NCBI GenBank assembly: GCA_001804805.1
Contig: MHBH01000069.1
Coordinates: 1-64,000 of the forward strand
Length of the DNA stretch: 64,000 bases
From: Lentisphaerae bacterium GWF2_49_21
GTDB taxonomy: Bacteria > Verrucomicrobiota > Lentisphaeria > Victivallales > GWF2-50-93
Direction of reading: 5' to 3'
Made by a program: the position numbers and the translations under genes. Numbering within the stretch: the stretch's first letter is position 1; each line of letters starts with the position of its first letter. The notes beneath the pieces were generated by a model. It saw nothing but the letters and a program-made list of their open reading frames with translations, did not search any database and was not told where the DNA came from. Of this stretch, positions 29,498-35,585 are shown in pieces.

Positions 29498-29524
29498 ATA
29501 ATTCCGGGCGCAGACCGGAATTAT
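29498..29524 (-). terminator. Hairpin over the stop codon of the retron helicase gene
   Basis: ATAATTCCGG (29498-29507) and CCGGAATTAT (29515-29524) form a perfect 10-bp stem with a 7-nt loop. The TAA stop of the helicase is inside the stem. This probably marks the end of the retron operon; there is no U-run. Confidence 0.5.
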
Positions 29525-32247
29525 TTCCAGACTGACTTCAGCTTTGCGCGGGCGTCCTGGATGGATTGCTTCTTGCTCTTCGCCTCCGCCAGTACATTCT
29601 CGCCCTCGCCGCGTTTTGCGAATATCGCACGGCCCGGCGACACGTGCAGATTCCATTTGTCGCTGAACAGTTCCGCCTTCATCTTTGAATCCGCAAAACA
29701 GGACGGGAGCGGATGATAGACGGCGATCTTGGTTTCCTTCGTCATCACGAACTTCTTCAGGATTTCAGGAAGCATCTTCGAAAGCCAGTTGTCCTTGCGC
29801 AGCTGTTCCCAGCGCGGAATTATGTAGCGCTGATCATTGAGCGGCCTGAAAAGCTCGTCAATGCATGTCGAGAACAATTCGATGTCTGACTCGTCCTTGC
29901 TGTCCAGGAATATCCTGAAATAATTGTCGGCGCGTCCCGTGATCTTCATCTTGGAATCCCTTTCCTTGAGCATCTCGATTGCTTTCAGCCCCTCAAATAC
30001 GGCAAGGCAGATGTTCTTGATCTTTTCCGAGGTTTCAAGTTCATAGCCGCGCATCTTCCGCAAAGTTCCTGAAACTGCAAAATTCGCAAATGAGTCGTCC
30101 GCCTTGATCTCAAGAGCCTTGATCCGCCGGTTCTCATAAGGTTCGCCTATCCTCCAGTTCTTGCGGGCCTTCATGCGCTGATGGCATCGTTCGAGCATTT
30201 CCGCGTTGAAGATGTGCGCGTTCAATGCGACATCCTCCGGACCTGCCTCCGTCAACGCCGGATGAATGTGCCCAAGTCCGTATTCAATCGCACCGTCATC
30301 GCAGATCCCGTAATAGTTCGAATGCTTCTTTGAGAACCTCGAGTAATCGCTCAGTCCCTTTTCAAATTCCGGAGCCATGCAGACCACATCCCAGATGTTC
30401 GAAGTCTTTTCCGGCCATCCGGGATCGAGCCTTATCGCCCTGCCACGGAGCTGGTTGACAGTCATCTCCGTCGCCGCATTCGTCAGATCGATCAACGTGT
30501 TGGCCGTAAGCGAATCCCATCCTTCTCCGAGAAGACCACGTGTCCCGACAAGACATCGCGTCACTCCCTTCTCGAACAAAGAAGTGATCATTGAAACATA
30601 ATTCCCGGTGTTCCAATCCCTGCCGGAACCGTGTATCCGGTAAAATCCGCCATCAAGCTCTGTTGTCAGATCCGCTACCAGGTTTCTTTCCTTGAACCAT
30701 TTTGAAGCCTCCTCCAAAAACCGTGCCAGGAGATCATCATCTACGATCACGGATTGCCCTGTCACAAGGATCGGATCGAGCACGTCCACGCAATGATTCG
30801 ATGTCAACGTCCGCATCGCTGACACAGCCCCTCCTGACTCTTCGGTCAGCAATTCTGACACTTCCTTTGCGACAATCGCACTTGACCTCTCGAAGTCAGC
30901 GATGACCAGCACTCTTATTTTGACATCCTGATTCTTCAGCTCCTCTGCAAGTATCTCGACAAGGGCGTCCATCTTGGATTTCGACAGGGCGAGGACGCGG
31001 CTGACGGTCGACTGGCAGTTGCGCAGTCCTTTTTCCGTAAGGATATATCCCAATGGACGGAACGCCGCCGACAGCTGCGAATAAAGCTTCCTGTCGTCAT
31101 CGTTCTGGCTGACCAGAAGATATTTTGAAGCGTAGCGGCCTGCGAGATCCGCATTTTCCTCCAAAGAAAGTGTTCCGCCTGCGAAGTTCGCAAGTCCTCG
31201 CGGAACATCTCTGCCAAGTTTCTTGAGATATTTTACCGCCTCGGAAATGAAGACGGAGCGTTTTCTCAAGGTGCTGGTCATTGAGTCCTCGGGAATCCCT
31301 TCCAATTCTCCGGCAAGCCAGCTGGAAAGAGTTTTCCCTGAATGTTTCTCCAGCGATTCAAGGACTTCAGAAAGGTTCGACGAACAGTTGCGGACATAGT
31401 CCAATTCATGTTCGGCAGGTCTCGTGAAATAAACAAGATCCTGATAGGGCGCAAGGGCCCCGTCCCTCACGAATGCCGGAGTCTGCAGGCAGTAGTCAAT
31501 GTCGCCGAGAAGTTCCTTGTGAAGTTCAATCTCCCTGTCAGCAAGATCCTCGGAAGAAGGAGGAGTGGCGGTGAGACCGAGGATGCGCGGCTTGTCAAGA
31601 GTCTTCACCAAGGCAAGCGCGACCTGCGCCCAGTATCCGACCAGATGATGGCATTCGTCGAAGATCAGGACCTTGACGCCCCTGTCCTTGAAGAACGACA
31701 TCAGCCTTGCGGAATCTTCGTTTACCATGGAATCCTTTTCACCGCCATTCGCATTGAAGCGCTTCTGCTTCCATCGGCGCATCAGTGAAAGATAGAATCG
31801 CTCAGGGTTGTTCTGTTCGAAATCTGCCAGCCATGCATTTGTAGATTTCTCATCTTCGCCTTCATCAACTAGCATCTTGCGCCATTCGGAAAGTAGCAGC
31901 AGCCTGTTCTTCTCATCCAGATCCTTAGTCCGGGCAAGCGACTGATAGGTAAGGACGGTCACAGGCATCTTGTCGGAGGGTTCCACGGACGCTATGGGAA
32001 GGCCATCGTCCGCGAGGAAATATTTCGTCTTTTCAATCCACTGCCGCTGGATTGCAGTGGTCGGCGCAAGAACAAGTACCGGCACATTCATCTTCACGGC
32101 GACCATGAGTCCGACAAGGGTTTTCCCGGAGCCTGGCGGGCTGACAATGTAGAGTTTGTCCTCATGGGCCTTGTCACCAAAGACAAGATCTATGATCTGC
32201 TTCTGCGAATTCCGCGGAACGAGGGAACATTTACATTTGGACAACAT
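29521..32247 (-). CDS. SF2 DExH-box helicase, putative retron effector
   Basis: A 908-residue superfamily 2 helicase/ATPase. Visible motifs are I SPPGSGKT (36-43), II DECHH (197-201), III LTATPP (225-230), V GTRGLLGEGWDS (568-579) and VI QLRGRAIRL (599-607). The last ~290 residues are unassigned and contain YFRIFLDSKDESDIE and FRPLNDQRYIIPR; I see no clear nuclease motif. The ATG directly follows the stop of the reverse transcriptase (TAGATG), so the two are one transcriptional unit. By position it occupies the effector slot of a retron. Whether it acts alone, e.g. by unwinding invader DNA, or triggers abortive infection cannot be told. The RecG/RadD-like and restriction-helicase families are alternatives for its origin. 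Confidence 0.85.
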   Translation of the reverse strand: MLSKCKCSLVPRNSQKQIIDLVFGDKAHEDKLYIVSPPGSGKTLVGLMVAVKMNVPVLVLAPTTAIQRQWIEKTKYFLADDGLPIASVEPSDKMPVTVLTYQSLARTKDLDEKNRLLLLSEWRKMLVDEGEDEKSTNAWLADFEQNNPERFYLSLMRRWKQKRFNANGGEKDSMVNEDSARLMSFFKDRGVKVLIFDECHHLVGYWAQVALALVKTLDKPRILGLTATPPSSEDLADREIELHKELLGDIDYCLQTPAFVRDGALAPYQDLVYFTRPAEHELDYVRNCSSNLSEVLESLEKHSGKTLSSWLAGELEGIPEDSMTSTLRKRSVFISEAVKYLKKLGRDVPRGLANFAGGTLSLEENADLAGRYASKYLLVSQNDDDRKLYSQLSAAFRPLGYILTEKGLRNCQSTVSRVLALSKSKMDALVEILAEELKNQDVKIRVLVIADFERSSAIVAKEVSELLTEESGGAVSAMRTLTSNHCVDVLDPILVTGQSVIVDDDLLARFLEEASKWFKERNLVADLTTELDGGFYRIHGSGRDWNTGNYVSMITSLFEKGVTRCLVGTRGLLGEGWDSLTANTLIDLTNAATEMTVNQLRGRAIRLDPGWPEKTSNIWDVVCMAPEFEKGLSDYSRFSKKHSNYYGICDDGAIEYGLGHIHPALTEAGPEDVALNAHIFNAEMLERCHQRMKARKNWRIGEPYENRRIKALEIKADDSFANFAVSGTLRKMRGYELETSEKIKNICLAVFEGLKAIEMLKERDSKMKITGRADNYFRIFLDSKDESDIELFSTCIDELFRPLNDQRYIIPRWEQLRKDNWLSKMLPEILKKFVMTKETKIAVYHPLPSCFADSKMKAELFSDKWNLHVSPGRAIFAKRGEGENVLAEAKSKKQSIQDARAKLKSVWK

Positions 32248-33294
32248 CTAAAGATTTTCCAGGATATTCTTAAGTTTTGCGGCCTGTTCGGGATGGACCG
32301 GCTTCATGAAGGCGGCGTGTCCGAGGAGGAAGGCGATCATTTCATCGTCAGGCTTTTTCTCCTGCGACTGCTTATGCACCATCGCCCGGATTATCCTCCT
32401 GGCCTTACGCGGGACAGAGACTTTGGTATTGACATTCAAGCCTAGGACTTTCTGGCGGGAACCGCTGCGTCTGATGAAGGTTTTCTCATCCGCCACTGCA
32501 AATCCCTCTTTCTGGACTATCTCCTTGAAGACCTTCAGGAATCTCAACATTCTCCCATCACCGGAAAAAACAAGGTCGTCGGCATAGCGTGTATAATTGA
32601 TATTATGTTTCCTGCAGAGTCCTGCAAGGCGTGAATCAAGACGCTTACATACGATGTTGCTGATCGCAGGACTTGTCGGGGCACCCTGCGGAAGTTTCTT
32701 CTGATAACAGCATAATCCTGCGAGCAGGAACGCCTGCTTCTTTGCGATCCCATAGGCCTTGAACATTCCCGCCACCCTCTTGAACGAAATCGTTCCAAAG
32801 AAATCGCGGAGGTCGATTGACAGGACGATACGCTTCCCGACATGCGGTTCCGCGGCGCTGAAAATGGTCCTCCCTTTCACGAAACCATGTGCGGCAGGAT
32901 GGATTTCGATCTGTTCAAGCATTCTTGCAAGTATCCGTTTCTGGATGAACTTGAGTATCGGGGCAGGAACGGAAATTATCCTTGGCGCCTTGCCTTCCCG
33001 TGGAATCTCCTTCTGCTTATACATTTCCTCGGATTTGATTTTACTTAGTACAAATCCCGCCAGAGACGGATCTATCCGGAGCCAGTATGGGAAGAGCGCC
33101 GCAGACAATGTGGTCTGTTCGGCATCATCCTTGTTCTTTTTCAACGATGGCGGAACCGTAAAGGATTTTGGAAGCTTTGTTCCAGGGATACATAAAGTAC
33201 CAGAATAAGTCTTCCATGGACCGAGGATCTTCTCGACCCGGCCATAATTGTATTTGTGGGATTTTTTCCCGAACAGCCAATTCAGCAACCCCAT
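32248..33294 (-). CDS. Retron-type reverse transcriptase
   Basis: 348 residues, the size of a stand-alone retron RT. RT motifs in order: PRIISVPAPILKFIQKRIL (104-122), AHGFVKGRTI (135-144), motif A SIDLRDFF (159-166, catalytic D161), motif B LPQGAPTSPAISN (201-213), catalytic YADD (237-240) and the C-terminal block VLGLNVNTKVSVPRK (283-297). The two retron-diagnostic blocks are present but altered: NAxxH reads SAAEPH (146-151) and VTG reads VLG (283-285). GGAGG lies 5 nt before the ATG. The structured RNA at 33466-33621 is upstream on the same strand, where a retron msr-msd should be. No maturase or endonuclease domain argues against a group II intron, and no DGR repeat is seen. Confidence 0.93.
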   Translation of the reverse strand: MGLLNWLFGKKSHKYNYGRVEKILGPWKTYSGTLCIPGTKLPKSFTVPPSLKKNKDDAEQTTLSAALFPYWLRIDPSLAGFVLSKIKSEEMYKQKEIPREGKAPRIISVPAPILKFIQKRILARMLEQIEIHPAAHGFVKGRTIFSAAEPHVGKRIVLSIDLRDFFGTISFKRVAGMFKAYGIAKKQAFLLAGLCCYQKKLPQGAPTSPAISNIVCKRLDSRLAGLCRKHNINYTRYADDLVFSGDGRMLRFLKVFKEIVQKEGFAVADEKTFIRRSGSRQKVLGLNVNTKVSVPRKARRIIRAMVHKQSQEKKPDDEMIAFLLGHAAFMKPVHPEQAAKLKNILENL

Positions 33295-33362: not shown

Positions 33363-33448
33363 AAAAGAACAGCTCTTGCGAGCTTGACTACCAACAGGCT
33401 CCAAATTGCTTGAATATGTTTGTAGTCAACGTCGCAAGACGTGTTCTT
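33363..33448. repeat. Inverted-repeat element, family D, between retron RNA and RT gene
   Basis: Imperfect ~30-bp inverted arms (AAGAACAGCTCTTGCGAGC on the left, CGCAAGACGTGTTCTT on the right, with TTGACTAC and GTAGTCAA inside) and a loop of about 25 nt. The left 25 bp are identical to 23839-23863. It would form a long hairpin in the RT leader, about 70 nt upstream of the RT start. Confidence 0.7.
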
Positions 33449-33465
33449 CATCTTATGAATAGTGC

Positions 33466-33621
33466 GACGGAGCGGCAGTTTTTACTTGTCAACCATATGG
33501 CATAGCCATTTATAGTCCATGGAGATTAAAAAGAATTTTTAATCTCCTTGGACTAAGCCGGGTAGTAACGCAAGCGCGGCGAAACACCGCGCACGATCTA
33601 AAAATCTACTGCCGCTCCGTC
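33466..33621 (-). ncRNA. Candidate retron msr-msd RNA
   Basis: Read on the minus strand, 5' to 3': a1 GACGGAGCGGCAGT (33608-33621); a hairpin GCGCGG-TGTTTCG-CCGCGC (33574-33592), the likely msr stem-loop; a 20-bp stem with one mismatch and 3-nt loop (33513-33555), the likely msd; a small hairpin ATGGC-TAT-GCCAT (33497-33509); and a2 ACTGCCGCTCCGTC (33466-33479), perfectly complementary to a1 over 14 nt. The 156-nt length, the order, and the position upstream of the RT match known retrons. The msr loop UGUUUCG resembles the UUU-containing loop of the Ec86 msr. Possible branch guanosines are at 33606 and 33598, both in a UAG context just 3' of a1. msDNA production is inferred. Confidence 0.85.
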
Positions 33622-33627
33622 AAGACT

Positions 33628-33636
33628 AATATAGCA
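33628..33636 (-). promoter_or_regulatory. Extended -10 promoter of the retron RNA
   Basis: Minus-strand TGCTATATT fits the TGnTATAAT extended -10 pattern. It predicts initiation near 33621, exactly at the 5' end of a1. No good -35 box is visible. Confidence 0.5.
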
Positions 33637-33734: not shown

Positions 33735-33802
33735 GTTGGAGTACAAGCTTCAGCTTGAGAAATTCAATGAAGACAAAGACAAGCTAAAGCTTGTACTCCA
33801 AC
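33735..33802. repeat. Long inverted repeat upstream of the membrane glycosyltransferase
   Basis: 23-bp arms (33735-33757 and 33780-33802, core GTTGGAGTACAAGCTT) with one mismatch and a 22-nt spacer. No T-run and no flanking duplication seen. It lies outside the retron RNA, between divergent transcription units; function unknown. Confidence 0.65.
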
Positions 33803-33863: not shown

Positions 33864-35585
33864 ATGATTAGACTAGACAGCAAGGCAAAAAACATCTGTG
33901 TCTATCTGATACCTCTCACAGCGGCACTGCTTGCCAGGATCATCCTATTCTCCAACTGGCTTGAATCACCGTTCAGATACTACCATAAGATCTCCGGATT
34001 GGATATGAAGACGGTACTGGCCTTTGCCGAATCTTTCTGCCATGGAGGCGCTGAATTTTCAAATTACAAATTCTTCTACTGGACAATCTTAACGGCTGGC
34101 GGCGGCATCACGGCGCTGATCGCATGCCAGTATCTCCTCGGGATATTGACGGCCCTGCTGATAACGTTCATAACCCTCGGGGTATTCAGGAACAGGACCG
34201 CAGCTGTAATCTCCGGAACTTTTGCAGCTCTCTATTCGCCGGAACTGATGTATGAAAGCATGACGCTGATCGAGTCCGTATTTGTCTTCACGTCAGCACT
34301 TTCCCTTGCGGCTATTGTCAGGCAGTCCCAGAAGCCGGATTCAAAAGCATGGCTCTTCATCGCAGGCTTCGCAGCGGTACTGCCCTCCCTTGGCAGATTC
34401 TCAGGGATCCTCTGGACACTCTGCGCAATCGTGTTCGTAATCTGGATGAATCTCCGGCATGCCCGGAAGACCACGCTCAGGATTCCGACGGCCCCCATCT
34501 GCATACCTCTCATCGGACTTGTCGCCGCACTGCTCCCTGTGACAATATTCAATGCCATCACCGTATCAAGCTTGAATCCGATCCCCGCCCTTCCCCGCTC
34601 GGGTTATGTGTTGAAGGCAGGTGCCGACGTCAATTTCACGAGCCATTCCACTCCGCCAAATCCGGCCAGGTCCGGCAGCTCGGGAATAACCCGGAAAGCC
34701 GGTAATTATGCGGAAAAATTCCTGTCACTGTTCAAGGCATATGAAATCCCCGACAATCTGAACTACTATTTCGTCAGGGAATTCCTCAAGCCGTTGAATC
34801 ATCTTGCAGGACCGCTGTTCCTGCTGCCTTTCGCCTCGCTCGGTATTCTTATTTTATTATATCAACGGAGGTTCAAAGGAAGAACGGGACTTCTTTTCCT
34901 GTATCTGATAGCCTTCGCCATTCCAATGACAGTCTTCATCCCATTTGGGAGATACAGGCTGATCCTGCTTCCAGTATTCTGCGCATCCGCAGGCTATGCG
35001 ATTGTCTTCATATTGAGCAACGTCCAGCATTTCCAGAAAAAATATGTTACCGTCCTTGTCCTGACCGCGGCATACTCGGTATTATTCTTCTTCGCATCGC
35101 CAAGTTCAATAAACCTGCGCGCCGAAGATTTTGTCGGATATGGAAATGCAATGGAGATTGCCGGCGGATATGACAGCAAGGCAATAAGCGACTGCTTCAG
35201 GACGGCATACGACATGAATCCATCATCGGCATCCGCAGTCATCCATTACGCCAACAGCCTCATGAAGAATTCAGAATTCAAAGAAGCGGAATCCGTACTC
35301 GGAATCCTGCTCAAGGACAATCCCTCGAATCCGACGGTTGCAATCAATTATGCTTCATCTCTTCTCGGAACGGGAAAACCGGCGGAGGCGGAGAAACTGC
35401 TGAAGGGGATTCCAGAACCCGAATCCAGAAACGGCAAGGTAAACTACTACTACCAGCTTGGCGAGAGCCGCAGGATGCAGGGAAGGAATTCCGAAGCCAG
35501 GCTCTGCTATGAACTTGCCCTGCTCTATTCCGACACAGACGCCCAGAAGAATATCGTCATGAAGGTCATGAAAGGGATGAAATGA
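33864..35585 (+). CDS. Polytopic membrane glycosyltransferase-like protein with C-terminal TPRs
   Basis: A 573-residue protein. The N-terminal ~400 residues hold about nine to eleven transmembrane segments in the style of the GT-C/PMT (ArnT-like) family, with a periplasmic first loop (FSNWLESPFRYYHKISGLD) and a later conserved arginine motif (FIPFGRYRLILLPVF). The C-terminal ~150 residues are TPR-like (ASAVIHYANSLMKNSEFKEA, NPTVAINYASSLLGTGKPAE). Such proteins transfer sugars from lipid-linked donors to protein or lipid at the outer face of the inner membrane. Acceptor and donor are unknown. It is divergent from the retron. Confidence 0.75.
   Translation: MIRLDSKAKNICVYLIPLTAALLARIILFSNWLESPFRYYHKISGLDMKTVLAFAESFCHGGAEFSNYKFFYWTILTAGGGITALIACQYLLGILTALLITFITLGVFRNRTAAVISGTFAALYSPELMYESMTLIESVFVFTSALSLAAIVRQSQKPDSKAWLFIAGFAAVLPSLGRFSGILWTLCAIVFVIWMNLRHARKTTLRIPTAPICIPLIGLVAALLPVTIFNAITVSSLNPIPALPRSGYVLKAGADVNFTSHSTPPNPARSGSSGITRKAGNYAEKFLSLFKAYEIPDNLNYYFVREFLKPLNHLAGPLFLLPFASLGILILLYQRRFKGRTGLLFLYLIAFAIPMTVFIPFGRYRLILLPVFCASAGYAIVFILSNVQHFQKKYVTVLVLTAAYSVLFFFASPSSINLRAEDFVGYGNAMEIAGGYDSKAISDCFRTAYDMNPSSASAVIHYANSLMKNSEFKEAESVLGILLKDNPSNPTVAINYASSLLGTGKPAEAEKLLKGIPEPESRNGKVNYYYQLGESRRMQGRNSEARLCYELALLYSDTDAQKNIVMKVMKGMK

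Follow-up and report, generated by a model that had tools for sequence, protein, structure and literature searches.

The window, a 64,000-nt stretch of the genome of Lentisphaerae bacterium GWF2_49_21, carries on its minus strand a structured non-coding RNA (ncRNA), the gene of a retron-type reverse transcriptase (RT) and the gene of a large SF2 helicase, in this order (Table 1). Retrons are bacterial systems that reverse-transcribe a small RNA into DNA, in most cases as an alarm against phages, and they are sorted by their effectors. The element of the window is almost certainly a retron, and it probably represents a real, undescribed type that is linked to a helicase. A preliminary description of the RNA had recognized its main elements; the short hairpin at 33497-33509, the linker that precedes a2 and is partly conserved, and the helicase gene downstream were not part of it.

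Table 1. Features of the ncRNA-RT-helicase locus, with positions in the window.
Feature	Position	Strand	Evidence
SF2 helicase (XPB/Hef/RadD-like), 908 aa, proposed effector	29521..32247	-	Pfam ResIII 3.9e-18; fold
Retron-type RT, 348 aa; YADD, region X AAEPH, region Y VLG	32248..33294	-	Profiles; solved structures
a2 arm, ACTGCCGCTCCGTC	33466..33479	-	Inverted-repeat search; cognate pairing test
17-nt linker before a2, AUGGUUGACAAGUAAAA	33480..33496	-	AGUAA in 5/6 ncRNAs
Short msd hairpin AUGGC-UAU-GCCAU, 5 bp	33497..33509	-	GGC-NNN-GCC in 6/6 ncRNAs; 5 pairs in three-member comparison
msd hairpin, 19 pairs and one mismatch, 3-nt loop	33513..33555	-	Fold; inverted-repeat search
msr hairpin, GCGCGGUG-UUU-CGCCGCGC	33574..33592	-	Fold; core GCGGUGUUUCGCCGC identical in 6/6 ncRNAs
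Favoured branch guanosine, within UUUAGAU	33598	-	UUUAGAU invariant in 6/6 ncRNAs
a1 arm, GACGGAGCGGCAGT	33608..33621	-	Complementary to a2 (14/14); five relatives re-pair
Extended -10-like box, TGCTATATT, putative ncRNA promoter	33628..33636	-	6 nt before a1

The complementarity of a1 and a2 that had been reported (14/14, 128 nt apart) is recovered by an inverted-repeat search, in which 33466-33479 and 33608-33621 match over 14 nt at 100%. This is the only perfect 14-mer inverted repeat with a gap of 50-250 nt in the 64-kb window, and only two of 40 simulated sequences of equal dinucleotide make-up contained any such repeat. The predicted fold of the ncRNA has an energy of -76.6 kcal/mol, compared with -39.2 (sd 3.8) for shuffled sequences (z = -9.9). 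Read on the minus strand from 33621 to 33466, the RNA consists of a1, the UUUUUAGAU stretch, the msr hairpin, the long msd hairpin, the short hairpin, the linker and a2. The proposed retron order a1-msr-msd-a2 is borne out, with the RNA lying on the same strand as a retron-type RT and ahead of it, and the layout agrees with the published list of retron features: a1/a2 arms of ~8-30 nt, one or more msr hairpins, an msd hairpin and an ncRNA located upstream on the RT strand (PMC6868368).

Several details of the earlier drawing are revised. At the apex of the msr hairpin, where a UGUUUCG loop had been described, a UUU triloop capping a GC-rich stem of 8 bp is the better reading. The msd stem, given as 20 bp, does span 20 positions (33513-33532 against 33536-33555, 95% identity), which form 19 pairs and one A-A mismatch. 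The linker between the short hairpin and a2 would be the expected start of the msd template. Two guanosines had been put forward as branch residues; 33598 is favoured as the candidate because it lies in the invariant UUUAGAU, whereas 33606 is not conserved. The branch guanosine of retrons is conserved, lies close to where a1 ends on its inner side and mostly belongs to a TAGC motif or one of its variants, of which TAGA, CAGA and others are known (PMC6868368), and the TAG within UUUAGAU resembles this consensus and its variants. The extended -10 box at 33636-33628, from which the transcript was said to start, is present; it is identical in the relative L155 and similar in L075 (TGATAAATT) and L077 (TGATATACT), but weak in L076 and L163, and no -35 element or two-box sigma-70-type promoter was called at the ncRNA. 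The suggested comparison with retron ncRNA families yielded nothing at the Rfam gathering threshold, the permissive matches being noise.

A covariance model was built from the three closest ncRNAs (those of the window, of L075 and of the genome GWF2_50_93) and run over 137 genomes of the order. One further member was retrieved, L163, whose RT and helicase are 54% identical to those of the window. The more distant ncRNAs score 92 (L077), 76 (L163) and 49 bits (L076), despite largely rewritten a1/a2 and msd stems. In the window, the model gives 188 bits on the minus strand and 57 bits on the plus strand, the latter being expected since the RNA is palindromic. Together with the RT strand, the element order, UUUAGAU and GCGGUGUUUCGCCGC, these scores support the direction that had been assigned to the element. 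The ncRNA occurs in one copy per genome and, among the 137 genomes, only in members of the RT lineage. Six weak matches near sibling RTs, located just upstream on the right strand, contain long hairpins only, lack the core motif and were rejected as members.

Plain MAFFT alignment mis-registers the rewritten stems, and RNAalifold on such an alignment kept only 16 pairs. It was replaced by a structure-anchored model and by a test of cognate against non-cognate pairing. Among the three close members, eight pairs have changed on both sides and are still paired, a number reached by one of 500 shuffles; six of them belong to the msd helix. When the partner is slid by 1-3 columns, the share of paired cells falls from 98% to below 50%. 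The msd hairpin is retained in rewritten form in L077, L076 and L163. Pairing of a1 and a2, whose loss in homologues had been named as grounds for refutation, is kept in all six members, with compensatory changes. When every a1 was paired with every a2 in silico, each a2 paired most strongly with its own a1, with a single near-tie between the window and GWF2_50_93, which share one a1 sequence. UUUAGAU, the core GCGGUGUUUCGCCGC of the msr hairpin and the GGC-NNN-GCC hairpin are invariant throughout the six ncRNAs.

The RT is recognized by Pfam RVT_1 (1.8e-25), by the PADLOC model RT_XIII (3.6e-88) and, above its cut-off, by the NCBIfam model retron_St85_RT. Its scores against retron profiles and solved retron RTs far exceed those against other classes of RT. 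In the PDB it matches the RT of retron Ec86 (Eco1; E 2.6e-39), and the window and Ec86 have the same arrangement of a1/a2, msr and msd hairpins. The two differ in partner and in ncRNA sequence; the window adds a third, short hairpin, and UUUAGAU replaces the usual TAGC. Regions X and Y of the window RT (AAEPH and VLG) deviate from NAxxH and VTG, while those of L076 read NAEQH and VTG. Substitutions at these sites are also known from validated retrons (PMC6868368).

Relatives of the RT were sought in the genomes of the phylum and in the GTDB collection. The close ones all belong to Lentisphaerota: L074 (GWF2_50_93, 84% identity), L075 (80%, on a contig that stops within the RT), L077 (56%) and L076 (54%). 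In a tree of 95 RTs, the window and its relatives form one clade (support 91/84) on a long stem, with no close relatives outside the phylum. The retron with RT and helicase appears, so far, as a small lineage confined to Lentisphaerota. Both genes evolve under purifying selection (dN/dS 0.07-0.11 for RT and helicase alike). Two more RTs are encoded in the window's genome, at L053 7800-8708 (G000 C39) and L055 6612-7484 (G000 C81); upstream of the former, L053 ~200-2200 translates to repetitive motifs resembling a CRISPR array.

Although RT_XIII is the best PADLOC model for this RT and its relatives, an assignment to type XIII was rejected. The clade scores 280-297 bits on this model, compared with 538 bits for genuine type XIII RTs, and it is nearest to type XIII in the tree, yet distinct. 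Type XIII RTs are ~500-600 aa long, as opposed to ~350 aa here. Genuine loci (L107, L084 and L116) encode WGR/HEAT-ARM and SWIM proteins, none of which lies beside the window RT, and their upstream regions lack the core motif of the window ncRNA; the partner here is instead a helicase downstream of the RT. The lower RT_XIII score, the absence of type XIII partners and a helicase without a matching effector model led us to file the locus as a retron of no catalogued type.

In all five loci where this could be assessed (window, L074, L076, L077 and L163), the first conserved gene downstream of the RT encodes the helicase (~910 aa). Order and orientation of the pair are kept at 54-85% identity, and in the window the start codon of the helicase comes immediately after the stop codon of the RT, leaving no intergenic gap. 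Pfam identifies ResIII and DEAD domains. The AlphaFold model is fairly confident (mean pLDDT 83), and its best solved relatives are XPB, Hef, RIG-I/MDA5 and RadD. The core motifs and fold are shared with XPB, Hef, RadD and PADLOC PbeA, from which the protein differs by its length of 908 aa, a helical insert, a conserved C-terminal part and its being co-encoded with an RT. Modelled alone, at lower confidence, the C-terminal ~270 residues gave no solved match at E < 0.001, and no nuclease or other toxic domain was recognized by Pfam or, for the C-terminus, by fold.

None of the retron effector models of PADLOC 2.0 matches the helicase, and its relatives P0005 and P0006 gave nothing at 1e-10. A DNA helicase acting as retron effector was found neither in PADLOC 2.0 nor in the literature searched, the main retron classification (10.1093/nar/gkaa1149) and census lying outside its scope. 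Among the neighbouring ORFs checked, no other catalogued defence gene was recognized. Homologues of the helicase are widespread in genomes without an RT, so the helicase can live alone. Several stand-alone relatives (L039, L040, L042 and L060) have apparent transmembrane segments in their C-terminal half, which the retron-linked ones lack, and the L060 protein is encoded downstream of an MmeI-type restriction enzyme. Matches in viral contigs are remote and without a window-type RT; those in plasmids are also remote, and the single plasmid neighbourhood read has no RT. Both were set aside.

The genome GWF2_50_93 provides a split member of the family. No ncRNA lies upstream of its RT-helicase pair. 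An intact copy is located on another contig, with the same -10 box and an msd stem that is rewritten but paired. This copy lies beside the orthologue of window gene 33864-35585, with a pilin gene coming after it, and the RT is now preceded by an efflux pump gene. In the window's genome, the orthologues of pump and pilin are adjacent (C32:50108-54331; L178, G000 C32), so that the two junctions look like the products of one reciprocal rearrangement. One inferred breakpoint separates ncRNA from RT and the other pump from pilin, with the rearrangement sites at L051 8380-8608 and L157 9902-10116. The split may be an assembly error, although REP elements occur at the RT-side junction and are absent at the ncRNA-side junction, which makes a misjoin at a shared repeat less likely. 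The retron of GWF2_50_93 is apparently split by nature, and its ncRNA, though recoded, retains its fold. That the RNA has stayed intact though unlinked from its RT speaks for selection on the RNA itself. In GWF2_50_93 only, ~270 nt with two strong hairpins lie between RT and helicase (L051 9690-9968; L004 2583-2856).

These elements are likely to form a three-part retron of ncRNA, RT and helicase, in which an msDNA would hold the effector. With comparable confidence, the helicase is regarded as the partner or effector of the retron. An RNA of ~156 nt would start at a1 and fold through a1/a2 pairing. The RT is expected to bind the msr hairpin, to prime from the 2'-OH of G33598 and to copy the msd from the a2 side to about 33556. 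The predicted product is a branched msDNA of ~75-80 nt that carries a short and a long hairpin, corresponding to the plus strand at ~33480-33556. RT and msDNA would then complex with the co-encoded SF2 helicase and restrain it. Phage infection might disturb the msDNA or the complex, by which the helicase would be freed or activated; it could then act on DNA by translocation or unwinding, possibly with host nucleases, and halt phage growth or kill the cell. Such holding is expected by analogy with characterized retrons, which mostly restrain a toxic effector (PMC12548924, PMC13405049), and we give this sequence of hold and release an even chance of being correct. The chances are similarly balanced that the locus defines an undescribed retron type, with an XPB/RadD-like SF2 helicase effector lacking a recognizable nuclease and including a natural split form with its ncRNA in trans.

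Tentatively, the helicase might instead serve the retron as a sensor or processing motor, remodelling msDNA or loading onto phage DNA, and interfere with DNA directly without release of a toxin. The DNA translocase fold seen in XPB, Hef and RadD and the lack of a visible nuclease or toxin domain are consistent with such a role, and single-protein helicase defence such as Hna exists (PMC13381803). The prevailing habit of characterized retrons, holding a toxic effector in check (PMC12548924, PMC13405049), speaks against this option, while the present observations fit both readings.

It is unlikely that the helicase is independent of an otherwise genuine retron and travels with it as a neighbour that acts alone in defence or repair. 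A precedent is offered by Retron-Sda1, where a retron RT and ncRNA also lie beside an uncatalogued neighbour; its HipA/DUF3037 partner defended without RT or ncRNA, and the system has been discussed as a new type in the making (PMC12548924). Its RT lineage (type III-A1-like) and its partner are both unlike those of the window. The homologues that occur without an RT in many genomes, one of them beside the MmeI-type enzyme, would also suit an independent gene. Against it stand the conserved order and orientation of the pair in all five loci at 54-85% identity, the lack of a gap in the window, and the fact that RT and helicase stayed together in GWF2_50_93 when the ncRNA was separated. That the structure is no retron RNA at all, but a palindromic mobile element or an mRNA leader upstream of the RT, as REP-type palindromes in the same intergenic region and the GWF2_50_93 copy away from its RT might suggest, is highly improbable given its single copy per genome, its restriction to the RT lineage among the 137 genomes, the retron element order, the covariation, the invariant branch motif and a displaced copy that is explained by rearrangement rather than transposition.

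If confirmed, the three-part retron would guard or steer a DNA-translocating motor, unlike the catalogued enzymatic or membrane effectors. The six ncRNAs provide a compact RNA model backed by covariation, together with a new RT to test for DNA production, and the split copy amounts to a natural experiment on the need for linkage between msr-msd RNA and RT.

The surroundings of the locus contain other repeats. A pair of REP-like palindromes lies inverted between a2 and the RT (33367-33391 on the minus and 33422-33446 on the plus strand). The unit consists of GTAGTCAA, a hairpin and TGTTC. The window's genome has ~194 copies of it, which frequently form inverted pairs separated by about 50 nt and whose hairpin stems covary; a reversed control pattern gave none. 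Upstream of the ncRNA, a 23-nt inverted repeat (33735-33802; 96%, 22-nt gap) is unlike the REP elements. A prepilin-like protein that carries an N-terminal methylation motif has 149 matches in the same genome (G000), which is a large expansion of pseudopilin-type proteins.
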